Shown in pieces: positions 1 to 47,900 of a DNA stretch of 64,000 nt (positions are counted from its first letter, which is position 1; each line of letters opens with the position of its first letter). Below the pieces are notes generated by a model. That model did no database searches. It was not told where the DNA came from and saw only the letters and a program-made list of their open reading frames with translations. Origin of the DNA: Berberis thunbergii (Eukaryota; Streptophyta; Magnoliopsida; Ranunculales; Berberidaceae); assembly GCA_003290165.1 (NCBI GenBank), contig QNQO01010677.1, positions 1 through 64,000 on the forward strand, in the 5' to 3' direction. The position numbers and the translations under genes were made by a program.

Positions 1-45
1 AGTTGCCCAAATTATTGCTGAATTCAACGAAGTGAGCTGAATGAA

Positions 46-2853
46 TTGCCAAATAATCTACCTCCCAGAAGGCTCATTGATCACGAAATTGAGTTAGTCC
101 CTTGTGCCAAGCCACCCGCACGTAGTCCATATCGCATGAGCCCTCCAGAGCTGACCGAATTGAGAACACAACTAGATGGCTTGTTGGAGTCAGGATTCAT
201 TCGGCCCTCTAAAGCACCTTATGGGGCACCTGCTTTTTTCAGCGGAAACATGATGGCAGTCTTCGCCTTTGTGTTGATTATAGAGCCTTGAACAAAGTCA
301 CTATAAAGAACAAATACCCGCTGCCGCTCATTGCGGACTTATTCGACCAACTTGGATCCGCCAGATACTTCACAAAACTCGACTTGAGATCAGGTTACCA
401 TCAGGTCTGCATTGCTGCTGGTGACGAACCCAAAACTGCTTGTTCTACTAGATATGGGTCATATGAGTTCTTAGTAATGCCCTTTGGCTTGACCAATGCT
501 CCAGCTACATTTTGCACCCTTATGAATGGCATGTTCTGTCACCTTCTGGACAAGTCTGTTGTGTCTTTCTTGACGACATTGTGTTTATAGTGGGACTATA
601 GAAGAACACCTTTATCATTTGCGAGAAGTGTTCCAAATCCTTAAGGATAATCATCTCTTTGTCAAGCAGGAAAAGTGCTCATTCGGCCAGACCCAGATCA
701 ATTTCTTGGGTCATGTTATTGGCAATGGCAAGATTCGGATGGACATGGAGAAAGTCAAGGCAATCCATGATTGGAACTCTCCTAAGAACGTGTCTCAACT
801 ACGTTCTTTCCTTGGACTCGCAAACTATTATCGTCGCTTCATAAGGGACTACTCTAAAAGAGTTGTTGCCCTGACAAATTTGTTGAAACAAGACCGAACA
901 TGGGAATGGGATAGGCAGTGTGAAGCTTCATTCCAAGACTTGAAATCGGCTGGGATGAAAGATCCAGTATTGGCCTTGCCAGACATCACCAAGCCCTTTG
1001 AAGTACAAACAGATGCATCTGATTATGCCTTAGGGGGAGTTTTACTTCAAGATGGTCACCCGGTAGCATATGAGAGTCGAAAGTTGAATGATACAGAGTC
1101 TCGTTACTCAGCTCAGGAAAAGGAATTGCTAGCCATTGTACATTGTTTACGGGTGTGGAGACACTACCTCTTGGGATCTCAAGTTCTTGTTAAAACGGAT
1201 AATGCTGCAGCAAGCCATTTCCTTACACAGAAGATGCTAACCTCCAAGCAATCTCGATGGCAGGAAAAATTAGCAGAATTTGACTTAGTATTGGAATACA
1301 AGCCAGGGCGCACTAACAATGTAGCTGATGCACTCAGTAAAGGGCAGACCTTGCAGTGCTAACTCATACTGGTCCGAGTCACACCATCTTGGAGAAGATC
1401 AAAGTAGGCCTACAGACAGATCCACAAGCGAATGCGATTACAGAGTTGATCAAGCAGGGCAAAACTCGACGGTTCTGGATAAAAGATGGAGCAATACTCA
1501 CAACTGGTAATTGCCTCTATGTTCCCAGAACTTCTAGTTTGAGGAAAAAACTTTTGAGAGAATGCCATGACACCCATTGGGCGGGACATCCAGGTTGGAG
1601 ACGGACACTTGCATTGCTAGAGAGGGGGCACTATTGGCCGCAGATACAGGAGGATGTAATGGCCTATGTTCGAACATGTCTTATTTGCCAGCAAGATTAG
1701 GTTGAAAGAGATCGACCAGTAGGCTTACTAGAGCCCCTGCCTGTTCCAACTCGTCCTTGGGAAAGTTTTTCCATGGACTTCATTACTGGGTTACCGAAAG
1801 TGGAGAATTTAGGAGTATCCTTGTAGTTGTTGACCGATTCTCAAAGTATGTGACCTTTGTGCCGATCGGACTAACTTGCACAGCCGAAGATACGGCGCAA
1901 TTGTTCCTCAAGCATGTAGTGAAGTATTGGGGACTGCCCAAAAACATTGTTAGCGACCGTGATGCTCGATTCACAGGAAAGTTCTGGAAGGAGTTGTTCA
2001 AGCTCTTGGGATCCAAACTTAATATGTCGACAAGCCAACATCCCCAATCTGACGGACAGACTGAGCGCTTTAACTCTATGCTTGAAGAATACCTTCGTCA
2101 TTTGTAAGTGCAAACCAGAAAAATTGGGTGGGACTACTTGATGTTGCACAATTCTTTTTCAACTTACAAAAGAGCTCAGCTACTCACTCCAGCCCCTTTC
2201 AGTTAGTCACTGGTCAGCAACCATTGACACCACATACATTGCTGACCGGATACCAAGGACCCAGCCCAAGAGCTCTTGAATTTGTCAAAGCCTGGCAAAA
2301 AAACATTGAAGTTGCTCGAGCCTATCTTGAGAAAGCCTCCCGTCACATGAAGAAATGGCCCGACAAGAAACGACAAATCGATCCTTTTGAAGTCGGGGAC
2401 TTGGTATTAGTGAAGCTAGATATGTTCAACAAGTATAAACGGACAGTTAGAGCACACAACAATCTGTTTCGCAAGTATGAGGGACCGGTACAGATTATTG
2501 AGAAAGTAGGCAAAGTCTCCTATCACGTCAAATTACCACATTGGCTCCGTTTCACCCATAATGTCTTCCATGCAAGTAACTTGAAGTCTTACCATGCAGA
2601 TGCCGCTAATCCCACAAGAAATGTATCTACCCGAGCATTGCCTAAGCATCCTACTAAGCCAGATCGAGAAGTGGAAGAAATCTTAGCTGACCGCCTCATC
2701 AACAACACAGGCCCGGATAGGGAGTATTTGGTCAAGTGGCAGGATGAACCTCCTTCAGAGATCAGTTGGGAGCCAGTCGAGCATCTGCTGCCATACCTCT
2801 CAAAGCTGGAAGAGTACTTGGAAAAGTTCGCTGCGAGGGCGTCAGCGAATTGA
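46..2853 (+). pseudogene. Degenerate gypsy pol (RT-RNaseH-IN-chromodomain)
   Basis: The polyprotein reading is broken into six pieces. RT begins near 46; the catalytic-palm region ([13 protein letters not shown] and MPFGLTNAP) is at 366-510, and the active-site region is disrupted by a frameshift near 560-600. The RT thumb and RNase H ([18 protein letters not shown]) run 619-1362. The integrase zinc-binding HHCC region is at 1560-1690 (HDTHWAGHPG to CLICQQ) and the catalytic core at 1757-2107 (VVDRFSKYVTF, QHPQSDGQTERFN). The chromodomain is at 2670-2830 (EYLVKWQDEP, ISWEPVEHLL). Breaks lie near 240-290, 560-620, 1360, 1698 (TAG), 1700-1757 and 2105 (TAA). No functional enzyme could be made. 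Confidence 0.92.
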
Positions 2854-2864
2854 GTGTGGGAGAG

Positions 2865-3341
2865 TGTCAGGACTAGTACCATTGGTTAGAAAATCAAGGT
2901 TCAGATGCCTTTCAAGACTTTCCTAATGGTCTCAAAACTCAATGTTCCTTTTGAAAAGTGCCCAAATGCTTAGCATCTATAATATAGGGGGAAGGTTTGA
3001 GCTCTTGACTGTGAGGACGTGTTGCCTCCATTGCATAGTCGGGCCAGACTGTACCGCTAGCATTTTTATTGTTTTCTTTGCATTGCTTTTCAACTTCAAA
3101 CTTGTATTTCCTCGATCGATAGCATCGAACTAGTCTTGAGCAACGTCCTTCCGAACGTTCCTCCCCATTGTAATCTATTGAATGTGAATGAGAGCTTTTA
3201 CTGACTGTTGTGCATTGTTATATTGTCTACAGATTGATATTGTGCATTCTCAAGTTAATATTTGTGCCCGTCAAAGTAACTACTCATAGGCTTACTAGTG
3301 AATTGGATAGCTAGTGCCGCACGGATTACTAGTCCGTGACA
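2865..3341 (+). repeat. 3' LTR of the chromovirus
   Basis: The LTR begins TGTCAGGACTAGT directly after the purine-rich GAGTGTGGGAGAG. It ends ACTAGTCCGTGACA, so its first and last 13-14 bases form a near-perfect inverted repeat that fixes both ends. The 5' partner LTR is outside the window. Confidence 0.85.
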
Positions 3342-5384: not shown

Positions 5385-5655
5385 CGCCACTTAGATAGCG
5401 CTTTTTTAAAGAGCTATCCAAGTGGGCACTAGGATAGCGCTTATTTGTCTTTAAAAAAAAGTCAAAAAAAAAAACACTACAATAGCGCTTTTAATTTTTT
5501 TTTTCAGTTAAGCGCTATCTTAGTTATGTCTTAGATAGCGCTTTAAAAAACGCTATGAGAAAAAACGTTACCCAAAGCTACCATAGCGCTCTGAAGCGCT
5601 ATGCTACTTACATTTAGGATAGCGCTTCGGAATATCACTACTATAGCGCTTATAT
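5385..5655. repeat. Subterminal AGCGCTATC repeats, left end of CACTA 1
   Basis: Repeated short palindromes of the form GATAGCGCTTTTTTAAAGCGCTATC in both orientations. This is the usual arrangement of transposase-binding motifs near CACTA ends. The right end has the matching cluster at 9680-9915. Confidence 0.8.
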
Positions 5656-13589: not shown

Positions 13590-13865
13590 TTATGTTTGAG
13601 GGTCTAGCTTACGAATGAGAACTTGATCCAAATTATCCCTGACAAGGCCAACAACACCTTCTCTATCATTGACTACAGAACTGACGTAAACAAATTTGAT
13701 TCAGTGAATAAACTTGATACCATTGCAAGGTTTGGAACCCAGAAGTTCATGGAAGCCTATGCGGCTGGCACTGATGTGAGCATGATTGGACAATTCAGTG
13801 TTGAATTCTACTAAGCTTACCTTGTTACCGAGGAAATAACCAATCGAAGCACCTTGAAGATCCCA
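13590..13865 (+). pseudogene. HSP90 ATPase-domain fragment, left part
   Basis: The translation reads MFEGLAYE, stop, ELD, then (frame change) IQIIPDKANNTFSIID, TIARFGTQKFMEA, AAGTDVSMIGQFSVEFY, stop, AYLVTEEITN. This is the N-terminal ATP-binding domain of cytosolic HSP90, including the region of the conserved GVGF loop (here SVEF). The DSGIGM segment is scrambled (DYRTDV). It stops at the left end of CACTA 2 and resumes on the other side at 24766. It lies on the same strand as the retroelement and replaces its pol region. Confidence 0.88.
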
Positions 13866-13887
13866 CACTACAACACAAATGCTCATT

Positions 13888-14215
13888 AATAGCGTTTCAA
13901 AAACGCTATTGTAGGCTATTATAGTGTTTTAGAAAACGCTGTGTCTGCCGGAGCTATCATAAATACAGGGTTATTTATAGCTTTTTAGAAACGCTATTAT
14001 AAGTAGACCATTTAGACTTTCTGAATTGTATATTGTACAATAGCGTTTCTGAAACGCTATTGTATACTATACAATAGTGTTTGAAAAGCGTTATTGTTTA
14101 GGTTGTGATAGAACTTAAAAAATGCTATTGTATAGTTACCAATAGCATTTATGAAACGCTATTATCTTCTCTCACGTGGCATTTAACAAATGTTATTGTA
14201 TTAGTTTCTATAGCA
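13888..14215. repeat. Subterminal repeats, left end of CACTA 2
   Basis: At least six copies of ATAGCGTTTCTGAAACGCTAT-like palindromes. The right end has decayed equivalents at 24560-24750 (AGCTTTTTAGCATTGCAACGCTATT). Confidence 0.8.
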
Positions 14216-14699
14216 ATTCTCAAGGCCTTTTTTTCTATAGCACTCATCAAGTGCTATCAAATGACTTTTTATAACATCTTATAAGTTTTATTTCTAGAAA
14301 ATAAAAACTAAATGTGCCAAACACTTTTCCATGAACGACGAGGCACAATAATGTAATTAATTTGTATTACATCGAGTCACCAAATCTATCAAATAATAAA
14401 GATCAGACTACATTTATTTCAATTGATGCATGGTAAACAACCAAACATCGCCCCAAAAGCCTGTACAAACTCTGCCCAAGACACCATACCAATCAGCGCT
14501 CAGCGACAATTTCAACACTACTCCCTCAGCGCAGCAGCCAACGCCGCCACCGCCAAACAGTCCATAGCGAGCCAATACACCAAGGATAAAAGACTTGATA
14601 AGCCAATTGGCAAGTACTTAAGCATTGCTCCACAGCTTGCAAACCGAATTTGCAACTTACAAGCACAAAAATGCAACTTGCAGTCACAATGTTCAACCA

Positions 14700-15730
14700 C
14701 ATTTCTGCTAATGCTTCTCCCATACAAAAGAACTGGCCTCCCAAAAGTAAGAGTGTTCTTCCTGATTGTTGTTGCACCTTCTCATTGCATGTTTTGCAAT
14801 CCAAGGTCTCCACAATAGCATCTACAACTTCTTCTCTATACAAACTTGATTGTAAATGGTCTCCCTGAAACATAGTTGTTGTCCATTCAATAACTCTTAG
14901 AGAATTTGAAAGGTCTACTAACTGCTCCATAGATATGAGGAAGCAGTTTTTGATAAATACCAGAAGATCAAGTTGTAATAAATTGGATGCCACTAATGGA
15001 CGCTGTTCAAGTGGAGCGTGCTGGAGGTATACTAACAAGATGTACATGGTATCCAAGAAACCTCCATGATCTTTTAAACTGTTTAGGCAACAACATATCT
15101 TTTAAACCTCCATGGTATCCTGTATATTGGATGGCTAACAACATACCTGCTGCTTGGGGACTGCATTAGACGGCTAACAAAGACTGCAACTGGTCACCAC
15201 CAAACTCCAGAACCTGAAAAACCAATGGAACCTGAAAAACCAATGGAACCCAGTCTACTGATAGCATTTGCTTAGCTTTGGACTTCAATAGGTAAAGCGG
15301 AACCGATGACTTCAGAAACAAACTACTACTACTAAGAAGTTTCATGAAGATTTCGAGTTGTGGGTCTGACTTCAGTACTATCTCCTTGTTAGCTTAATTT
15401 CTCGATACCAATTCTGCCAAAATTGAGATTACTAACTCCAAAATCTCATCATCATTAGAAGCAAACACAACCTCGAGCATTCCGCCGATCAAAGAAACGT
15501 TTGACAAAATTGATTCAAGAATAGGATCCCCATGTGAGTCCAACCAAGCTTTGGCAATCACTCGCACTGAGACTCAATTTCAGTGCTTGATGGTACAACT
15601 TTTCTATGACTTCAAGTTCTTTACCAGTCAAAGAGACCCAATTTATCAAGCAGAATCTCTGTCTCCATGCGGTCAAAAATAAAATAGCATATACATCCAT
15701 ATCTTCCAGTCTGAGCAAGAAGTGAAACAA
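14700..15730 (-). pseudogene. LIN/CERBERUS-like E3 ubiquitin ligase fragment
   Basis: Minus-strand exon pieces read in order: about 15730-15530 (TAWRQRFCLINWVSLTGKE, LEVIEKLYHQALKLSLSASD); about 15530-15150 (LVISILAELVSRN, stop, ANKEIVLKSDPQLEIF, KSKAKQMLSVDWVPLVLQVL); about 15056-14960 (LLVYLQHAPLEQRPLVASNL, LQLDLL); and about 14876-14700 (SLYREEVVDAIVETLDCKTC, KVQQQSGRTLLLLGGQF). These match the helical-repeat region of the plant U-box/WD40 protein family LIN-1 (CERBERUS), involved in protein ubiquitination. The U-box and WD40 domains are absent. Stops are present. This is the last fragment in transcription order. Confidence 0.78.
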
Positions 15731-15905
15731 GAATCAATCAATTTATTGTCATTCATTAGCTTTTCACTGAACCACAAATGTTAAATGAATTTGGAGTCAC
15801 AGATTACTAATGAAATTCAAAATTGGAGAAAGGATATCCTTTTCATTCATTCAAATAGAACAATACGGTGAGATTTTGCATTACATTTGGCAGTCATTCA
15901 AACCC

Positions 15906-16621
15906 TCATAAACAATGTCCTAGATAAAGTATTGATTGTAACTTAATGTGGAGACTGAGATGTTGGTTGAGCTTGATATCCCATGAGCTCCCTCGAAATA
16001 ATTCATTGGAGAGCATGCAACGTACATATTCACTTTTGCTGTAACAAGTAGCAAAGAAACCTAGTAAGTGGCACAGGAAACATCCATAAGGATTACACAT
16101 TGCCACTATTGAAAATTTAACTTCCAGTGGAGAAACCAAGAGGCCATACAACATGCGACACATGAAAGGTCTCAATAATCATTTTCTGTTCCATCTTGGA
16201 GATCTTTGATTTATAAATAAAAAAATGTGATACTATACTGGATATCAAATGTTTCAACATCCACCTCCTAGAATGCCACGTCTCTTATGATACGCCTTCT
16301 TTAAGTTCCACCCAGTTATTATTCGGAATGAAAACATCATTATTGAAGCACAAGAAACCATTAGGTATCACAAAAAGTCTTGAAGGGTCAATGGCAATAC
16401 CTGTCCATGAGTCCAACCTTATCTGACAAATTCGGGACAAGAATAGCAAAAATCTGTGTCCTGCCGTTGATCCCTTTTTGGACTTCATTCTGATCAGTTG
16501 AACCCATAGATAATGAAGTATCCAACAGATGCACCTTCACTGCAGAGTCAAACCCAGCAGTGATAAGAAGTGACGATCTTGGATCGTATGCACACCGCCA
16601 AATGAATCTCCCTCTGTACAA
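15906..16621 (-). pseudogene. WDR6-like WD40 protein fragment
   Basis: The main exon piece (16621-16395) reads GRFIWRCAYDPRSSLLITAG, FDSAVKVHLLD, then RTQIFAILVPNLSDKVGLMD. A second piece near 16045 reads SKSEYVRCMLSNE. Together they look like a C-terminal part of the plant WDR6 homologue, a WD40 protein that in other eukaryotes partners a tRNA 2'-O-methyltransferase. The WD motif IWRCAYDPRSSLLITAGFDS is complete, but the rest of the propeller is missing. The identification relies on memory of the family and is less certain than the others. Confidence 0.55.
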
Positions 16622-17689
16622 TTACAAAAGTGAGACAATGGCTTAACTAAACATCTTTTCAACTCAATGGCATGTATAACTTCAATCTTGTATTTATGTA
16701 CAAGTATATATACTACTCGTCCTTATCTTATAAAATCTCTGGACGAAGGCTGTCAATGGATCACATTTGAATTAGGTTAGAATATAATAGATCTGATGAG
16801 CTGGAAGGCCTAGTTGAGGAGCACTGATCAATTGAGGCTCCAATATTCAGGATCAAGATTAATCCTTATATTTGACTGAACCAGGGAACTAGCCATAGGA
16901 GCGAAGCTATTATTTCAAATGAATATCAAATTAAAAAATACTCACATTTAATCTGTCCAGTGTATTCAATTACCATGATACAAGAATTTTGTATTACACT
17001 ATCAACATAAGATGTGCCATAAATCTACAACGGGTAATAGCATGTTAGAACATAATTGTTTTTCAGTCCTGAACAAAAAATAATGTGGCCAGTTCAAATC
17101 AGATTGGAGGATCATCACGTTGAATCATATACCAATTCAACATTAAAATACAGTTCCCACTGCAGAAATTCCAGGTTTAACATGCCCACTGAGCACAAGA
17201 TATCAGAATCATCATCTAGTTAAGAAACGCAAACAGAGAAGATTTCAGAATACAATAAATTGCTTGAAAACCAAATATGTACTTCTAAAGGATGTCACAC
17301 TGGGAAAACAAAATATTACTTGATGGGATTCCATTTAATTCCTCCAGGAAATGGTTAATACAAAGGGAAACATTGCAAATGAAATTTACAAAGGAGCTCA
17401 GATTCATCATATGAATCAAAACTAGCTAATGATGTTAATGTAATAAGTATCCTTAACAAAATACTTAACAGGTTGAAAATGTATTCATAACTGGAAGCTA
17501 TGGTCAGAATTGAGTGTTAGCCTTTTGAGATCTCAAAGGTCAAACTGCATTCAGATGATAGAACACGAACATACTTCTACTGCATCTACCAATTGCAAGG
17601 CTATTCTAGTCATTATGATAGCATGCTATATATAGAATGGATTAACACATTATAAAGGCGGTAAATAAAAATTTACAATGCAATCAAAC
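16622..17689. other. Interior of CACTA 2 without recognisable exons
   Basis: AT-rich sequence with no coding signal on either strand. It probably represents captured introns or spacer between the WDR6-like and SART1 fragments. Confidence 0.45.
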
Positions 17690-19440
17690 TCATCTCTCCT
17701 TTCGATATGTTTTCTTGTGGTTCTCCCAATGTGACATTTTGAGTCTCAGGCGCTTGATTTTTGGAAGCAAGAGCTAGGGAAGCAACAGCCTGCAGACCTG
17801 ACGGTTTTTCCTCCTCCTGCTTCTTCAAAGCTAGTTTTCTAGCTTTCTCTAGAGATTTGTAGAGATCCTAATCTTCATATCCAAAAACAAGAGTTTCCTC
17901 TTCCTCCACTTTAGCTGAAGATATATTTTGACAGAGTGTCTTAGATGCCTCTTCAGCTTTTGTAAAAGCTGTTTGGTATGCATCATTCCTACTTTGCGCC
18001 TCAGATCGCTCTTGTTCTTCTTTGGCGAATTGCCTCTTCTCGTCTTTCCTAGAACCTAGATCCCCAGCACCCAGTCCATCACTGACAGCTTCTGCTTCAA
18101 GGGCATCTAAATCAAGTTTCTCTTTCTTTCTGAGTGCCTTTTTCTTCTTGGGTTTCTTGAGTTGAAGCATTTCCTCTTGTGTATAGTAGTTTGATGATAC
18201 CTTTCCTGATGAATTGAGATCCTCAAACCCACTGGTCGTGGAAACACCTAATATCCTTTTCCTAAGCTGAAAACAGTAACAGTTTTTCTCTTAGAAATAA
18301 ATTATTTGTCACAAAAAAATCCCCTATATTCAACATTACATTGGGAAGGAGATGAGAGTTACCTATTCTAGCTACTTCTTTGTTTTGCCAGTAAAACGCC
18401 CACTTTCATCTAAGGTCACGACCTGAACAAATAAATAATAAAAGATAAGACGATCTACTATATATGCCTATATATTACAAGGTATTACAAAGATCCTATG
18501 CTAGGGCATGGAGCTAACCTCGTCATCAACAGGATCATCATATTGTGGAAGGATTGTCTTCTGAGCACCAGACTCATCATTGAACCTACGAAGAGATAAT
18601 ACAGATGGCAGATATTTTAGTCGTATGAAGCACATTTGTGAGAAAAATACAACAATAATAAGATCAATCTTACTTGTCATCATATATCCCAGTCTTTTTC
18701 TTCGCAGCATTGTAAGCATCATCTCGTTGCTTTTGCTCTCCAATTTCCACATTTTCAAGCATATCAACCTCTGTCAATCAGAATGTCGTTGTAAGATTTT
18801 AAGGAATTAGATTTGATAAACACTGCCTTAAAGAAAATTTCAAGCAAACGATAATTACCATCATTGATGTCACCATCAGCTAATATGCTCTAATTTTTTA
18901 GAGTCAGAACAACTGCTCCGCCTTCAACGACTTTATCAAGACCGTGAAGTACTTTAACTCCAGCAAGGTCCACTGTTAGCAAGAAGAAGAAGAAATAAGT
19001 TGAAGTTTTGATGCCATATATTCATGCATGTAACAAACTAACTGAATAGATCCCTTTGAGTTTGCAACAACAGACCACATGATAAATGCATTTTTCATGT
19101 GATACCGTCGTACTAACGAGGTTTTACACATATATACCCAATCCACACTGAAGTGCAGGGCATAGCGCATATATAAGCGATGGTGTGCATCACTTTCACA
19201 GAAAACCTATGTCTATCAAGATTCTAATACTCATCTAGAATTCTACTACATAATGAGATGTCATAATCTAATACAAGGAACAGTATTGGATTAACAACGA
19301 TGTACACAAATTTCAGTAAATTTTCAAAGAAAATAAAGTAAATGAGGCTTAGGAAGAGCAAGGGCAGTACTCATAGTATGCTGAGCTGACTCATTTTCTT
19401 CATCTTCTTCTAGAACAATATTATCCTGTGGAAGTTGAAT
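17690..19440 (-). pseudogene. DOT2: SART1/DOT2 (snRNP assembly factor) fragment, at least seven exons
   Basis: Exon pieces on the minus strand read in the expected order. 19440-19373 reads QDNIVLEEDEENESAQHT. 18975-18862 reads VDLAGVKVLHGLDKVVEGGA, VVLTLKN. 18773-18674 reads DMLENVEIGEQKQRDDAYNA, AKKKTGIYDD. 18590-18520 reads FNDESGAQKTILPQYDDPVD. 18420-18360 reads VVTLDESGRFTGKTKK, stop. 18268-17868 reads LRKRILGVSTTSGFEDLNSS, then LKKPKKKKALRKKEKLDLDA, LEAEAVSDGLGAGDLGS. 17867-17690 reads DLYKSLEKARKLALKKQEEE. This is the SART-1 family, U4/U6.U5 tri-snRNP protein (Arabidopsis DOT2/MDF). Stops at 17866-17868 and elsewhere disable it. It is the longest captured piece. Confidence 0.88.
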
Positions 19441-19860
19441 CAAAGAGTTATCTTAAATGAAAAAAACCACAAAATAAGTAAAAAATATCACCGCCCAAGA
19501 AAGCAAACTAATCAGAAATGAGGGTCACTAAAACATACCTGCTCCTGGAAAACTCTTGAGAGATGCAAAGCTTATTTATTGTCGTCTATCATATAAATTC
19601 ATCAAATTTTCAAAAATATTAAATATGTAAACATTTCCTTTTTAACACTTATCTTGCTTAACAGATAAGTATTTTGCCTAAATGAACGACATCATGGCCT
19701 TGAAGTTCAAAAAACAATAAATAAAATATACCCTTGGGTTTTCAACCCCAAGCTAATGGATCACATGCCATCCATCTGAAGATGTAATAAAACTTGATAT
19801 GTATCATAACATTTGAAAAGTGTTGCCATGAATATAATTCACTGGTTAGTGTTTCAATTA

Positions 19861-19968
19861 CCTCATCAAATGCCTCAAATATGTCGATACTTGGTTGATG
19901 GATAGTGCAAACTGTTGTCCTTCTTGTGCCAACAACATTCTTTACTGCACGTATAACAATAGTTGCCT
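19861..19968 (-). pseudogene. PDR-type ABCG transporter exon fragment
   Basis: The minus strand reads [35 protein letters not shown]. This is the segment after the Walker B region, with the H-loop ([11 protein letters not shown]), of a full-size plant pleiotropic-drug-resistance ABC transporter. Only this stretch of about 35 codons is recognisable. It is open and well preserved, suggesting a recent capture. Confidence 0.85.
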
Positions 19969-20479
19969 ATCATTTTACAGTTGAAAATAGACGAATGAGG
20001 AATGAGATTAACAAAAATCAGTGTATTTACTTGTAATTTATAAAAACTATTCCCATTTAGGTGGAATGAAATCAGCTCCTAAAGTTTGTAATTACTTTGT
20101 TAGGTCTTAACCTGACCATTAACTATTTTCTAATTACTGACTTCCCGAAATTGTTTCAATTAGATATATTTTGCAGAATAAGAAACTTCTGCTAGCTAAA
20201 GTGTGAGTATTGACACCTCCCCTTCCAGCTAAAAAAAACCTCAACCTGAACAAGGGTAATTAAAAAACGTCTCTGTGTATGTTGAAAGAACCATAACATT
20301 GTGTTAAAAATCAGGCTAGCCAGGGATCAGTTTGTCCATGGTGCCACACAGTACACTTACCTATATGTGTCAATTAAATGCATTTTAACAATTTTGAACT
20401 AAAGAATTTCACTTTCAAAATTCCCTTGGTACATAAGTAACGAAAAAGGGATCCATAGATGCTTCAGTGCCTCTTACCT

Positions 20480-20712
20480 CATAAAGATGTGCTAATCTAA
20501 GGAGCATGTTTCCATCATTCAGTTCCTACAAAACCAAAGTCGGGCATAGTTCTTACAAAAACATGTTCCAACAGTCGCCAACTTTCACTTTATAACGTGT
20601 AAAGATAAGGTTACCTCAAGAGTGATTAGAGCAACATTTGGAGGTAAAGAATAGTCAGGATCCATGGCAGTTGCATTAGTCACATGAAAAGCCTTCCAGT
20701 CTTCCATTTTCG
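20480..20712 (-). pseudogene. Alpha-mannosidase (GH38) fragment, two exons
   Basis: 20712-20613 reads KMEDWKAFHVTNATAMDPDY, SLPPNVALITLE. After an intron, 20531-20480 reads ELNDGNMLLRLAHLYEV. Both belong to the C-terminal region of plant lysosomal/vacuolar alpha-mannosidases of glycosyl hydrolase family 38, which trim N-glycans. The catalytic N-terminal domain is absent. Confidence 0.8.
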
Positions 20713-20934
20713 GCAAGTCAATTGTACGTTTAGAAGATTACAATGTTAGAAAAGGGATTTCCTGGAATAGTTAAGCTTATAAGTTATACCTCATGTGTGA
20801 AAGAAGCACTAGCCATGATCTCTGGCAAATAACCATTAGCTAAAACAACATATATGGACTTTTTGATTTATGTTTTCCAATTATTGCAGCAAAACACAAC
20901 GTTAGGCGTGGCCACGTCTAGGGTCATATTTTCT

Positions 20935-22005
20935 CATCCAGACATGCTTGTGGTTGATTAGAAACTTGACCAACTTGCGTCCGTCAAGGACTGTAGTGAT
21001 CATTGAAGCTGACCGAAACACCACCTTCGCATATACTGGGTCCTCAAATGGAAGAACCTATTCCATTTTGATTGCTTCAATACAATCCTCGTACACCCTG
21101 AGAATCAAAATCAAGTCTAATATTTAGTAATATGAATGTATAAATACATAAACAACACAACAAATAGAAATGGGTGAGAATAGAGAAAGATATAATGATG
21201 ATTATTACTTTAGAAAGAAGTCGAGAAGCTCTTTCGCAAGCATGGGATGTCCCCTAGAAAATGTTGCAAACATGATCCTTTCCTCTTCAAGAACATAAAA
21301 GGAGGGAGCCCATGGTTGTGCCATTGGATTGAGATTGGAAGCTAGGAGTGAAGGACTCCAGGGCTACGCAGTTGGATTGAGGCTTGAAGCTGGCTGTGGC
21401 CTCCAAGGCTGTGCAGTAGGACTGAGATTTGTTGAAGCTTGGGGCACAACATGTTGTTGCAGTGCTGGTTCATTCACCAGGCTCGTCTTTGGATCAGTTG
21501 CAACGTTGACATTGACCATGCTAGCAGCAAACCCCATGGCTCTCCCAATCTCCTTTTCCATTCTACAGATAACTACATCTTGGACAATGTCCTGAAATGC
21601 CTTACTCAAGTTGCCATTCTCCATATCTTTTATGGCACGTAAGGCACTAGCTTTGTTTTCATAGATAAATTAACTGCATTGACATCCTTCTCCCAGTAAG
21701 ACTAGTTGTGACTGCTAACTCCATATCAGGTTGTGGTGCCTGCCTATTGTGTTCCATGAATGCTATGCACTGCCTACCTTATTTTGCTGCCAAACTAACA
21801 CAACATCCTCTTTTTTTAGCAGTATACCAACCATGCTAGGAAAACCCAGCATCTGCATCCACAACCAGAATGCAATTATCTTCGTACACTGTACCAGGTC
21901 ACATCCCAACTTGATCACCATGCGACTGAAAACCTGTCTCTCTAAGTTGTTATACCATTTGGATAGTGCAATTGTGGAAGAAGCACTAGCCATGATCTCT
22001 GGCAA
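20935..22005 (-). pseudogene. RRM-like plant gene fragment, function uncertain
   Basis: Reading the minus strand from an ATG at 21991: MASASSTIALSKWYNNLERQ, then ALWLW-type helical text (IIAFWLWMQMLGFPSMVG). At 21624 it continues MENGNLSKAFQDIVQDVVIC and a Pro/Ala-rich repeat (SLNPTAQPW, three times). At 21310-21208 it reads FYVLEEERIMFATFSRGHPM, LAKELLDFFLK. At 21100-20935 it reads VYEDCIEAIKME, stop, VLPFEDPVYAKVVFRSASMI, LINHKHVWMR. The end has the layout of an RRM-like fold in a plant-specific family. I recognise the pattern but not a name. Stops are present. Confidence 0.5.
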
Positions 22006-22127
22006 ATAAAATATTGATATTAGAAATATGTGGATACATATTTACTTGAACTAGTCATGTATCTTGATCTACAAAGAATTTAATGTCAATATTCAGGACA
22101 AGGACCAGCACTTACCATCTACTTCGA

Positions 22128-23065
22128 TTCCCTTAGGGAAAAATGGAACAGAACCAATAGCGATAATTATGTTCTTCGCAGTTATAACATTATCAGGCAA
22201 GCCAACTTTTCCATATTTCACCTTTTGTGGACCTTAAAAAACAAATCCATGCACGAAACAGTAAAACTAATGAAAGACCAAGTTAACAATGAAACTACAC
22301 TTTTTCCTAACTACTAATGTGTATATACAAACAGAAGGTTTATGCAATTTTATCTTAGATCAAACCAAGTTACAACAAGCAAAACTAACAACAATAGTGC
22401 CTACGCCAGTCAGTATGTCCACTCCTAGAGCTTTCATTGAATTGGTCAAGTTATTTCGATTTTTTGATGCGAGGTTGTTTGCATGATCAACAACCCCTTG
22501 TCTATCATATTCAGCAGCTGCAACCTTTCATCATAAGTTATGTGTCAGAGTCAGATAACACATGAAATAATTAAATTGTAAAGGAATGATCACAAAAACA
22601 GAAAGATAGCCATTAAATCAACCATGCAAGAATGCTAAGATGCAGTTGAAATATCTCCAAGTTTAGAGGTTGTATTTGGAGATACATGCTGATTTGAAAA
22701 CTGTGGCAAGGTTGAAGTATGAAGTCAACAATTAGTCGTTATGTTGGATAAGAATCATTTTTGTTGAATTATCATAAAAGCAATCTGTGAAATTTTGCAT
22801 GGCAAGTGTGAACAAGTAAGGAAAGCGATAATTTGAGAAAACAACTGTGATAGTCATTTTTAATGTTATTCAAATAGAATAAAATTATTTTGTTAAGATA
22901 ATCATGATGTCTTTTTAACTGTAAGCCAAAAGCCTTCATGTGCTGCTCATTCCGAAGTTCACGCATCTGTCCACTGACAGCAAGAAGAGCTTTAGAAGGA
23001 ACACAACCTCTGTTCACACAAGTTCCACCTACTACATCTCCCTCAATTATAGCAATTTTCAAACC
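22128..23065 (-). pseudogene. Plastidial dihydrolipoyl dehydrogenase fragment, three exons
   Basis: The first piece (23065-22917) reads [34 protein letters not shown]. It contains the redox-active disulfide motif GTCVNRGC of lipoamide dehydrogenase. The second (22527-22395) reads [40 protein letters not shown]. The third (22237-22128) reads [39 protein letters not shown]. The sequence type is that of the plastid pyruvate dehydrogenase E3 subunit. Only the N-terminal FAD/disulfide region is present, and the exons are open. Confidence 0.9.
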
Positions 23066-23544
23066 CTGTAACCAATGTGTTTAAGGTTATAGATTTCATG
23101 CATCTTATACATTCTCTTATTAATATCTAATTTGAGCTATGGATGCATGGACCCCCCGATTCTTCCCTTGAATATTGAGTTGGGAAAAGACTATTGTATG
23201 TCTTGCATGCTGTGGGAAAAAAGGGAAAAAACAGATAACCAATTATTAAAAAAAAAAAAAAAATTTGAGCATCAATTTGCGACTGTCACTAATAATGTCT
23301 TGATTGTCACAACTCTCTTCAGATTGTAACAACTAGGGAGGACAAATGTTTCAACATTGTTCACTAGAACAAATAGACATTTAGATTGGCTTTGAATTTA
23401 AATATGGGTGTTTTATAAAACAATCACCATAGAAGACAATATTAAATAATTGAATGGGGTTCTGTAAAATAATCACCATAGAAAATAGTATTGAATAATT
23501 GAATGAATAAAAAATAAAAATAAAAGGCATAATAAATTACTTGC

Positions 23545-24093
23545 CAAGATCGATGTGCTATTGGATACCGAAACCAAAGCATCTAGTCTTACTGAAGTTC
23601 CTCCTCAACAGGTCATACTCCTTCACCTTCAATCCACTCTCAAGAAGTTGCATCACCTTGTCACCTCGACGGTGACATAGCAAGAAATCTTCTCATTACA
23701 CCCGATTCGGAAAGATTTTTGTTAACACAAAAATCAAAGGGTCAAAAACCCCATCAACCAAATCAATGTAAAATCAAAATGAACAAAAAACATAAAAGAG
23801 AGAAACCCTTTTTGTTTGTTAGATACATACCTTTGGAGAAAACTAAGGTTTGTTCACTCAACTACTCCAACACCTACAAATAAAAATAAAATAAAAAAAC
23901 AGTGAAAAATGATGAGGGTTTAAGAGGAAAAGATGTGCAATGGGGTTTAGGGGGTAACAAGGAGATAGAGTTAGTATACATACCTTGGAGGCCTTGGTGA
24001 GTCGATTTCTGCTCTTGCCGACGGAGATGTTGAGGACAAGCTTCCGGACCTTGACTCCTTCATAGATTTCGACAGCTTCTTCTCGGCGGCCTG
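23545..24093 (-). pseudogene. RPL11: Ribosomal protein L11 (uL5) fragment
   Basis: After an acceptor (TTTTTGCAG), the minus strand reads AAEKKLSKSMKE from 24093. A frame change gives VKVRKLVLNISVGKS, NRLTKASK. The next exon reads VLE, stop, LSEQTLVFSK (about 23875-23832). The next reads [14 protein letters not shown] (about 23715-23670), followed by further frame-shifted pieces to 23545. This is 60S ribosomal protein L11. GA-rich leader sequence upstream on the minus strand (24100-24530) may be its captured 5' UTR and promoter. It is the first fragment in transcription order. Confidence 0.85.
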
Positions 24094-24109
24094 CAAAAAT
24101 CCATCAAAT

Positions 24110-24535
24110 CAGATATTTGTCTCTCTATATCTCTCAATCTCCCTAGATCTAGATCTCTATTTCTCGATTTCTCTCTCCCTCACTCTTTCCCTCTCCCTGG
24201 ATCTCTCTCACTCTCACTTGTAGAGCGGCGTGCCTTGGGTTTGAAGAAGAGCGGTGTGCCTTTAGTTTGAAGAAGAACGCGTCCCTCTCCCTGGATCTCT
24301 CTCACTCTCACTCTCCCTGGATCTCTCTCACTCTCGCTCGATTTCTCTCTCCCTCACTATTTCACTCTCGCTCGATTTCTCTTACTCCCCCTCACTCTCG
24401 CTTGTAGAGCGGCGTGCCTTTGGAGAAGAAAAATGCCTTTCCAATCTGCTGCGATTGACGGGGGAGGAGAGCGAGACTGAAAGGGAGAAAGACGTAGATG
24501 CTTTCTAAAAGTTGAAGTGGAATCGAATGAGCTCA
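24110..24535 (-). promoter_or_regulatory. Probable captured RPL11 5' leader/promoter with tandem repeats
   Basis: On the plus strand this is CT-rich, with three or four copies of CTCCCTGGATCTCTCTCACT and repeats of GAGCGGCGTGCCTT. On the minus strand it lies directly upstream of the RPL11 coding fragment and would be its 5' UTR intron, leader and promoter. If active it would drive transcription through all the captured exons in CACTA 2. This is inference; I see no clear TATA box. Confidence 0.4.
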
Positions 24536-24765
24536 CTTTTTTATTTTCCTGCTTCCTCTTTCATAGCTTTTTAGCATTGCAACGCTATTAAAATTTGCGA
24601 TTTTAAGAAGCAATTGTGGCACAACGTGTCTTTCTTTTTAAGTTCCCGCGCGCGGCTTTGTTTATAGCGTTTTAAATTTTAATTGTCCATAATTTCAGTC
24701 AATCATAGCACTTTGGACAAAAATGTTATAAACATATATTATAAATGAGGACTTTTCTTGTAGGT

Positions 24766-24813
24766 ACACTCAAGGATTTGATAAAGAAGCATTTTGAGTT
24801 CATTAGCTACCTC
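24766..24813 (+). pseudogene. HSP90 ATPase-domain fragment, right part
   Basis: Directly beyond the CACTA 2 right end the plus strand reads TLKDLIKKHFEFISYL. This is the HSP90 segment that lies about 50 residues downstream of where the left fragment stops. It shows that CACTA 2 inserted into an HSP90 fragment, with some HSP90 sequence lost at or after insertion. Confidence 0.8.
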
Positions 24814-44999: not shown

Positions 45000-47900
45000 C
45001 GATAATTTTAACACTTGCTCTATTGGTATACCCTTTATAAGTTGATCCGCAATATTCTCCTTTGACTTCACATAGTCAATTGAAATGATTCCAGCTTTGA
45101 GCAATTGTTTTATTGTGTTATGTCATCGTCTTATGTGCTTAGACTTGTCATTGTAAATGTTATTTTTCGCTCGTGCAATGGCTGCCATGCAGTCACAGTG
45201 AATACATATAACAGTCACAGGTTGTGGCCATAATGGAATATCTTCTAAAAATTTTCTCAGCCAATCTGCTTCTTCAGCAGTTTGATCTAAGGCTATAAAT
45301 TCATATTGCATTGTTGAACGTGTTATTCACGTTTGTTTTTGTGATTTCCACGACACTGCTGCCCCACCAAGTGTAAATACATATCCACTTGTGGATTTTG
45401 CAGTTTTACCGGATATCCAAGTAGCATTCGTATATCCTTCCAAAACTAGAGGATATTTTGTATAATATAATCCATAGTTGATTGTGAACTTTAATTATCG
45501 CAATACTCTGACATAAACTACCCAATGGTCCTTGGATGGTTTGATAGTATATCTAGCCAATCTATTTACTGAGTAAGCAATATTCGGTCTAGTACAATTT
45601 GTAATGTATTGTAGTGTCCCAATGATACGCGAGTATTCCAATTGAGAGACATTTTCTCCCTTATTTTTCTTGAGATTGCAACTTGGATCATACGGTGTTT
45701 TAGCCGGATTGCTATCAAAATGACCAAATTTTCGCAAAATTGTTTCCACATAACGTGATTGGGTAAGTATGTAGCCATCATTATTTCTTAGAATTCTTAT
45801 TCCCAAAATTACATCAGCTTTACCCATATCTTTCATATCAAAACTCGAGTTCAATAATTTCTTAGTTGAGTTTTGATATCCAAGTTTGGTCCCATGATGA
45901 GCATGTCATCAACATATAAGCACACAATGACAATAGAACCATTATCAAATTGTTTGATGTAAACACATTTATCACATTCATTGATCCGAAATCCATGTGA
46001 TATCATTGTATGATCAAACTTTTTCATGCCATTGTTTAGGTGTTTGTTTAAGTCCATAAAGAGATTTTACAAGCTTACAAAACTTTTTTCTCTTGACCTT
46101 TTGCCACAAAACCTTCGGGTTGTTCCATATAGATTTCTTCATCTAATTCACCATTTAAAAATGTTGTTTTTATATCCATTTGGTGTATCTTCAAATTGTA
46201 AACATAAACAATTGCAATTAGCATCCTAATGGATGTAATTCTAGTCACTGGTGAGTAAGTGTCAAAGAAATCTAGCCATTGTTTTTTATGGTATCCTTTG
46301 GCGACTAGACGAGCCTTATATTTTTCTATTGTACTATCAGGCTTTAATTTTCTTTTAAAAATCCATTTGTAACCTATTGGCTTACAACCTAGAGGTAAAT
46401 CTATTAATTCCCACGTATGATTTTGCAAGATAGAATCAACTTCACTATTTATTGCTTCTTTTCAATAACAGGATTCAGGAGAGGTGATAGTTGTTTTATA
46501 GGTTTGTGGTTCACCCTCAGTGAGAAACGTTAAAAAGTCAGGTCCAAAATCTTTAGCAATCTTGACTCTTTTCCCTCTCCTTGGCTCTACTTGTTGTTCT
46601 TGGACAACCGGTGCAGATTCATTTCAGTTCCAAGTCTTTATCTTGAACACCGGATGATGAAGTGTCATTAGCATGATTAAAATCATGTGCTTTTCTTTTA
46701 TTTCCAGTAAGCCTATCATTGTAAGGAAATATATTCTCAAAAAATTCAGCATCATTGAACTCAATGATAGTATTCGTATGGATATCTGAAATTCCCGATT
46801 TAATGACTAGAAAACGATATGCTGCACTATTATTGCCATATCCAATAAACACACAGTCAACCGTTTTAGGTCCAAGTTTAACCCTTTTTGGAAGTGGTAC
46901 TTGAACCTTTGCTAGACAACCCCACACTTTCAGCATTTTATAGGTTGGTTGTCTTTTGTTCCATTTTCATATGGTGTTTGATCACTTTTCTTTAGTGGGA
47001 TTCTATTCAAGATGGTGTTTGCAGTAAGCAAAGCTTCACCCCACATTTTTAATGACAACCCATAACTATTTAACATGGAAATAATCATGTTTTTCAAAGT
47101 TCTGTTTTTACGCTCTGCAACCCCATTTTGTTGGGGAGTGTATGGTTCAGTCGTTTGATGAATAATTCCATGTGAAGCACAAAATTCTATAAAGGCATTG
47201 GAGTCATATTCTCTTCCTCTATCTGATATTAGAATTTTTATTTTCTTGTTTAATTGATTTTCGACTTCAACCTTATATGTCTAGAACATATTCAAAGCTT
47301 CATCTTTGGTATGTAGTAGATAAACATAACAATACTTACTACTATGAAAGTAATGTAATAATTCTTTTCTCTACGAGTTGGGTTTGATTTGAAATCACCC
47401 AAATCTGTATATATTAATCCTAACAATTCATTTGATTTTTCCATTACAAACTTATAAAATTTACTAGCAAATTTTGATTCTACACAAGTTTCACATTTAT
47501 GTAAATTGTCAATTGTGCATTTAGGAAGTAAGCCAAGATTAACCATTCTTCATAAAGTTCTAAAATTAACATGTCCTAATCTATCATGCCATAATGTAGA
47601 AGATTCAAGCAAGTAAATAGAATTAATACTATTTATATTATTATTATCATCCAAAAATAATACATTGAGTTTAAAAATCCCTTCAGTCAAGAAGCCTTTC
47701 CCAACAAATGTTCCCCCTTTAGTGAGAACGAGCTTGTTAGATTCAAATACAAGTTTAAAGCCTTAGACATAAGATTTTTAGTAATTTGAGGAACATGCAA
47801 TACATCCATCAGGGGAAGGTCCTTGCCAGATGTAAATTTCAAGACCACTTTCCCTTTGCCAGCAACACTTGCAGTAGATGCATTGCCCATGAACAACTTT

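Follow-up and report, generated by a model that had tools for sequence, protein, structure and literature searches.

A close precedent for the transposon at positions 13866-24765 of the window analysed here (the whole stretch of 64,000 nucleotides, positions 1 to 64,000 of contig QNQO01010677.1 of Berberis thunbergii) is Tgm-Express1, a CACTA element of 5.7 kb in the soybean wp allele. It holds five host-gene pieces, exons as well as introns, which are spliced as cassette exons in one transcript (PMC1947982; PMC2613891), and from this spliced transcript we take its pieces to share one direction. The Tpn1 family of Ipomoea consists of non-autonomous CACTA elements whose ends are conserved and whose interiors come from captured host genes (PMC5105172, PMC8195511), Pack-CACTA and Pack-TYPE elements are described as capturing chromosomal DNA when neighbours fuse through complementary terminal deletions (PMC8903248, PMC13317346), and in wheat 140 capture events, mostly of gene fragments, are reported for CACTA elements of chromosome 3B (PMC4290129); lettuce (PMC8195511) and Chenopodium (PMC8978399) also figure in the CACTA literature used for comparison. 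Maize Helitrons, a different transposon class, gather gene pieces stepwise, up to 12 of them (PMC3288121). None of the titles, abstracts and excerpts of the literature searched on orientation reports a direction rule for captured fragments. The window element carries pieces of eight host genes which all read from its right end to its left end, and in the few members sampled this capture direction looks family-wide, which is the new point of this study.

Like Tgm-Express1, the window element is a CACTA transposon that carries both exons and introns from a number of unrelated host genes, but it has eight pieces instead of five and is known from sequence, whereas transcripts were shown in soybean. 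It differs from the Pack-TYPE elements in combining many blocks, with block sharing as the ground for proposing a fusion step, and from wheat, where 19 captured genes are transcribed and under selection (PMC4290129), in that its SART1 copies look neutral. The number of genes had been called exceptional in the first-pass annotation; eight is indeed many for a CACTA element, yet with five in Tgm-Express1 (PMC1947982) and as many as 12 reported for maize Helitrons (PMC3288121) the element is of a known kind. Its features, from left to right, are:

13640 to 13865, plus strand: left flank, HSP90 pseudogene broken by the element (PDB HSP90, E 4.8e-23 for both flanks; coordinates from the translation)
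13866 to 14300, plus strand: left end, with terminus CACTACAA and subterminal repeats (ATAGCGTTT / AAACGCTAT units); left-end profile at 13866-14205, E 9.5e-83
14529 to 15733, minus strand: LIN-like E3 ligase fragment with several exons, which follow their order in the gene (PF23628, E 3.7e-29; PF23654, E 7.7e-16 and 2.1e-12); its open reading frame (ORF) 15518-15733 was assigned by eye only
15932 to 16621, minus strand: WDR6-like fragment, read by eye (WD40, PF00400, E 0.024, below the Pfam cut-off); the boundary at 15932 was set from relatives
17212 to 19573, minus strand: SART1/DOT2 fragment with introns (PF03343, E 2.5e-4; alignment to the host gene, L018)
19745 to 19966, minus strand: PDR-type ABCG transporter fragment, exon of the second nucleotide-binding domain (PDB ABCG1, E 0.0016)
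20418 to 20737, minus strand: alpha-mannosidase fragment, two exons (PDB jack bean alpha-mannosidase, E 1.2e-14)
20905 to 21669, minus strand: RRM-like gene fragment, by eye only
22096 to 23080, minus strand: lipoamide dehydrogenase (LPD) fragment, three exons, by eye of the plastid type (PDB dihydrolipoyl dehydrogenases, E 2.7e-14; PF07992, E 4.2e-5)
23530 to 24093, minus strand: RPL11 (uL5) fragment with introns (PDB, E 1.8e-23; 73.6% to the host RPL11-type gene L055)
24105 to 24765, plus strand: right end, with pyrimidine-rich subterminal region and terminus TTTTCTTGTAGGT; right-end profile at 24430-24764, E 1.1e-114
24766 to 24810, plus strand: right flank, where the HSP90 pseudogene resumes (second HSP90 match, residues 222-239 of structure 4x9l)

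The CACTA-type ends named in the first-pass annotation are confirmed: the left terminus begins at 13866, and the right terminus at 24753-24765 differs by two mismatches from the family end TTTTCTTGTAGTG, which is present exactly in three relatives (L009, L011 and L050). CACTA termini with terminal inverted repeats, and subterminal repeats in direct and inverted orientation, place the element in the CACTA (En/Spm) superfamily; seven of the eight listed copies of a 25-nt unit lie in the left subterminal region (13889-14200), as do inverted pairs. The left-end profile, which like the right-end profile includes the window copy itself, matches at many loci, as befits a many-copy family, and CACTACAAGAAAA occurs 3448 + 3456 times in the genome versus 100 + 97 times for the reversed pattern, counts which take in every CACTA family with such an end. 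Host-gene DNA with introns lies between the ends, and no transposase family was found among the 29 distinct element ORFs scanned (a part of all its ORFs), as in Pack-type elements. The flanking trinucleotides (CCA and ACA) share two of three bases. The left flank corresponds to residues 106-171 of 4x9l; the right-flank piece alone is short and weak (11 bits), and about 50 residues are missing from the pseudogene at the insertion site, a loss which either predates the insertion or was caused by it. Since left and right flank can be read as parts of a single HSP90 pseudogene, both ends bound one insertion, which disposes of the concern that the terminal repeats might belong to two different elements. 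On this anatomy we have little doubt: 13866-24765 is a single non-autonomous Pack-type CACTA insertion inside an HSP90 pseudogene.

From right to left the minus-strand pieces are RPL11, LPD, RRM-like, alpha-mannosidase, PDR/ABCG, SART1, WDR6-like and LIN-like. The eight intron-containing pieces listed in the first-pass annotation hold up for six by means of tools, with WDR6 weak and the RRM-like piece recognised by eye (no RRM domain was matched in its three ORFs scanned against Pfam). Matches to PPR proteins that appeared in the RPL11 comparison are set aside, as they derive from sequence translated in a wrong frame. Their shared strand was likewise upheld, as ten plus-strand ORFs of the element, scanned as a control, gave no Pfam match at E 0.01. 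If the captures were independent, eight of eight in one direction would have a chance of 2 x 0.5^8 = 0.8%.

Five more elements (L050-L054) were picked by end and subterminal sequence and blind to content. Each of the five has a left end; a right end was located in L050 and L054 and a partial one in L053, while the profile scan found none in L051 or L052. Recognisable genes are present in four of the five, and every one of them faces the end toward which the genes of the window element read; L051 has a left end and no recognisable gene. All 57 stop-free ORFs of at least 75 amino acids in the other four were scanned, a few of them beyond the likely element bounds, and of these 34 have the orientation that the window element would predict and 23 the opposite one. 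Family matches at E <=0.001 were obtained for 5/34 predicted-direction ORFs versus 0/23 opposite ones; between E 0.001 and 0.01 there are three in the predicted direction, one of which looks like chance, and two in the opposite. The genes with tool support in these four elements are:

L050, common direction: ABCC (PDB, E 4e-25)
L052, common direction: EF-hand, NDB by eye (E 4.1e-7)
L052, common direction: MDHAR (PDB, E 8.6e-25)
L053, common direction: callose synthase (E 1.1e-5)
L054, common direction: cytochrome b561 (E 2.5e-13)

Further genes recognised by eye have the same direction: GDSL lipase (L052), WVD2-like (L050) and PP2C (L054). RPL11 beside the right end is common to L050 and the window element, and its direction in L050 is inherited; ABCC is not common to the two. 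A serine carboxypeptidase (E 2.4e-15) beside shared blocks in L041 and additional ABCG exons (E 1e-6) in L015 also have the common direction, taken relative to the shared blocks, as the end profiles did not find the ends of these two elements. The tool-supported captured genes thus point one way in 12 of 12 cases (six in the window element, one in L041, and the five listed above), with L048 and L049 contributing no gene to this tally; for independent events the probability is 2 x 0.5^12 = 0.05%. The earlier suggestion of a bias beyond random capture is strengthened by this recurrence in 12/12 genes and 5/5 elements, and judged by these sequences the bias looks family-wide. Separately from every tally, L047 (C66:525000-533900), whose element ends were not found, has SNF2 (1.1e-4), PP2C (0.006) and three fragments seen by eye, for which there was no Pfam match, all on the minus strand, and is a possible second multi-gene chimera.

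The distribution of the blocks bears on how the window element may have arisen. A genome search with 14300-24500 gave 80 matches, among which the window's own place is absent; scores were computed for 38 of the 3258 candidate places, which makes the counts lower bounds. As to further copies of the whole chimera, local alignment revealed partial, colinear relatives, and none of the places among the matches listed has all blocks together. The left end with LIN, WDR6 and SART1 is found in L039 and L040, LIN/WDR6 with SART1 pieces in L026-L029, and the left end with SART1 in L014, L020, L023-L025, L030 and L031; PDR to RRM blocks are present in L015-L017 and L035, PDR to LPD blocks in L036-L038 and L041, RRM with LPD in L033 and L034, and LPD with RPL11 and the right end in L009-L011 and L042. 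At three distinct loci (L033, L036 and L038) the LPD piece ends at 22737. As seen by eye, the SART1 block extends to the start codon region in L014 and L039, and the LPD block to further exons in L011, and because these longer blocks exist, the window element would hold trimmed versions. Since the partial relatives carry different block subsets, it is highly probable that the chimera was built in steps. At the RRM/LPD junction there is a 37-bp direct repeat (20796-20832 and 21973-22009, 97% alike, 1177 bp apart), perhaps a trace of block joining; inspection by eye gave no convincing remnants of terminal inverted repeats at internal junctions. In L042 (C501:394000-403000, positions 1-3155) a CACTA end of another type, TTTTTGGTGTAGTG, adjoins the LPD and RPL11 block, with a LigB dioxygenase fragment (PF02900, E 5.3e-27) beside it and, on the same strand, a likely GH3 glucosidase fragment recognised by eye.

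Selection on captured pieces was assessed with the SART1 block, the main piece of which (17708-19580) is 93.8% identical to the host gene, with about 930 bp of that gene absent at 17708-17710. Ten distinct copies, the window element included, were compared with the host gene. Left out were L019, which hardly differs from the host copy, L045 and L046, where no splice site fell within the aligned part, and L024, L025, L028 and L031, which nearly duplicate counted copies. Changes were counted at 442 of 8872 exon positions (5.0%), 324 of 5631 intron positions (5.8%) and 10 of 206 bases of the GT/AG splice dinucleotides (4.9%). The resident copies thus show neutral decay, with no selection seen and nothing maintained now, and selection, which had been offered in the first-pass annotation as one possible cause of the shared direction, finds no support in the form of maintained function. 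Because of this neutrality, the bias would have arisen at capture or in early survival. Poly(A) signals are unevenly distributed: AATAAA counts on the sense and antisense strands of five elements were 3/22, 2/17, 5/14, 5/13 and 3/13 (one element bound for L052 and L053 was set by hand), and the host SART1 gene has 0 in sense versus 10 in antisense.

The parent genes speak to the possibility that a run of eight neighbouring genes was copied as one segment, which would be expected to leave the parents adjacent and in this order. A genome search with the SART1 family, followed by alignment, placed the host gene on C451 and C7940, where the matched long exon has no stops; these copies are 99.9% alike and probably allelic. 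The block in the element keeps its introns, begins within an exon and ends before the last exons, and so is cut inside the gene on both sides, and none of the 15 listed matches of the RPL11-type domain (PF00673) lies on C451 or C7940. One of these 15 places, L055, aligns with 23530-24093, introns included, and is a relative of the RPL11 source, perhaps not the parent itself, so that parent mapping succeeded for SART1 and reached only a relative for RPL11. The similarity to L055 begins at an exon boundary and leaves its upstream region outside the alignment, so that capture of an RPL11 promoter at the right end, a possibility we considered, is unsupported. With SART1 truncated at both ends, its host contigs free of listed RPL11-type matches, and other elements carrying subsets of the blocks in other contexts, a segmental copy, for which no supporting evidence was found, can practically be dismissed. 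A gene-filled Helitron nested in the CACTA element would draw on the known capacity of Helitrons to collect several gene pieces (PMC3288121), but the gene blocks join CACTA ends directly in L014, L030 and L011, and neither strand has a CTRRT motif immediately preceded by a perfect GC-rich hairpin, a strict rule which diverged ends could escape; we regard nesting as very improbable. Scarcely more credible than a segmental copy is a useful fusion product of the chimera, kept by selection: the SART1 block of the window copy does keep its GT/AG sites, with 0/24 bases changed, but at 5-6% divergence roughly one such block in four should look like this by chance, the SART1 exons contain stops, and exons and introns diverge alike.

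For the direction itself, the account we favour, which as a whole we consider to have an even chance of being correct, is that of a Pack-type CACTA family with stepwise assembly, right-to-left captures and an early filter on direction. Its observed basis is the ends, the single insertion, the gene pieces, their direction, the block sharing and the neutral decay of SART1. Host-gene DNA, introns included, would have been copied into several members of one family, and members with different blocks would have exchanged or fused to give the window element in steps. Transcription may enter from the right end, the captured genes being read from there to the left end; elements with antisense captures would be lost early, such captures being harmful or unproductive through antisense RNA directed at functional genes and through the many poly(A) signals of the antisense strand, while sense captures would be tolerated and then drift freely. 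The early filter taken alone is a tentative proposal, slightly short of an even chance, and is compatible with neutral decay because most differences accumulate after insertion. To a similar degree, still on the doubtful side, the family may be a one-way exon collector, in which any captured host piece comes to read right to left, with direction fixed at capture or by early antisense loss and not by later function. A rival possibility, to which we give appreciably less credence, is that direction was set once and inherited, with same-facing neighbours fused and the agreement between elements due to chance or shared ancestry; relatives share the blocks in colinear order, local Pack-TYPE insertions of conserved orientation have been reported (PMC8903248), and the agreement at the level of elements is just 5/5, but L050, L052, L053 and L054 agree with genes absent from the window element. 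Less likely again is a strand-directed capture step, in which repair synthesis favours one strand of transcribed genes: it would fit a direction that recurs with different contents while resident copies show no selection, but we know of no CACTA mechanism that predicts such a preference, and no feature that would bear on it was found at the junctions.

Several points weigh against the favoured account of early loss of antisense captures. The eight captures cannot be counted as eight independent draws, since elements had exchanged blocks before these came together here, and per element the agreement is 5/5, a small sample with a two-sided probability of about 6%; the true probability is between 0.05% and 6%, because blocks move separately, yet some travel together. 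The two opposite-direction Pfam matches (L050 1450-1695 and L052 4920-5150; E 0.003 and 0.0046) are weak and were taken as chance, like the wrong-looking match at E 0.009 on the expected strand. The splice sites of resident SART1 copies decay at the neutral rate, the AATAAA asymmetry comes with the sense orientation as such, and 7.5-kb segments from unrelated parts of the window have skews equally large and of mixed sign. As a universal rule the account also meets an exception in grapevine, where Cactavine-5 is reported to carry a captured PPR piece opposite to its transposase ORF (PMC2528002).

By what route cut-and-paste transposons acquire host genes is an unsettled question, and a many-member family whose left and right ends are clear and whose captures face one way allows it to be addressed by counting. 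The countable alternatives for direction are the copying step, transcription of the element and loss of antisense captures, while the neutral splice-site decay in resident copies argues against maintained function as its cause.

Other mobile elements are present in the window and near family members. ORFs for reverse transcriptase, RNase H, integrase and a chromodomain at 213-2853 (plus strand) represent a Ty3-type retroelement with chromodomain, and RVT_2 ORFs at 45495-46461 (minus strand) a Ty1/copia-type retroelement. Weak matches to the left-end profile at 5400-5632 (E 1.1e-9 to 4.4e-5), with CACTACAA at 5475, are probably the remnant of another CACTA element. In L032 (C66:596515-601002) a family left end at 1385-1515 adjoins RPL11-region sequence belonging to a different copy, which looks like the insertion of one family element into a relative.

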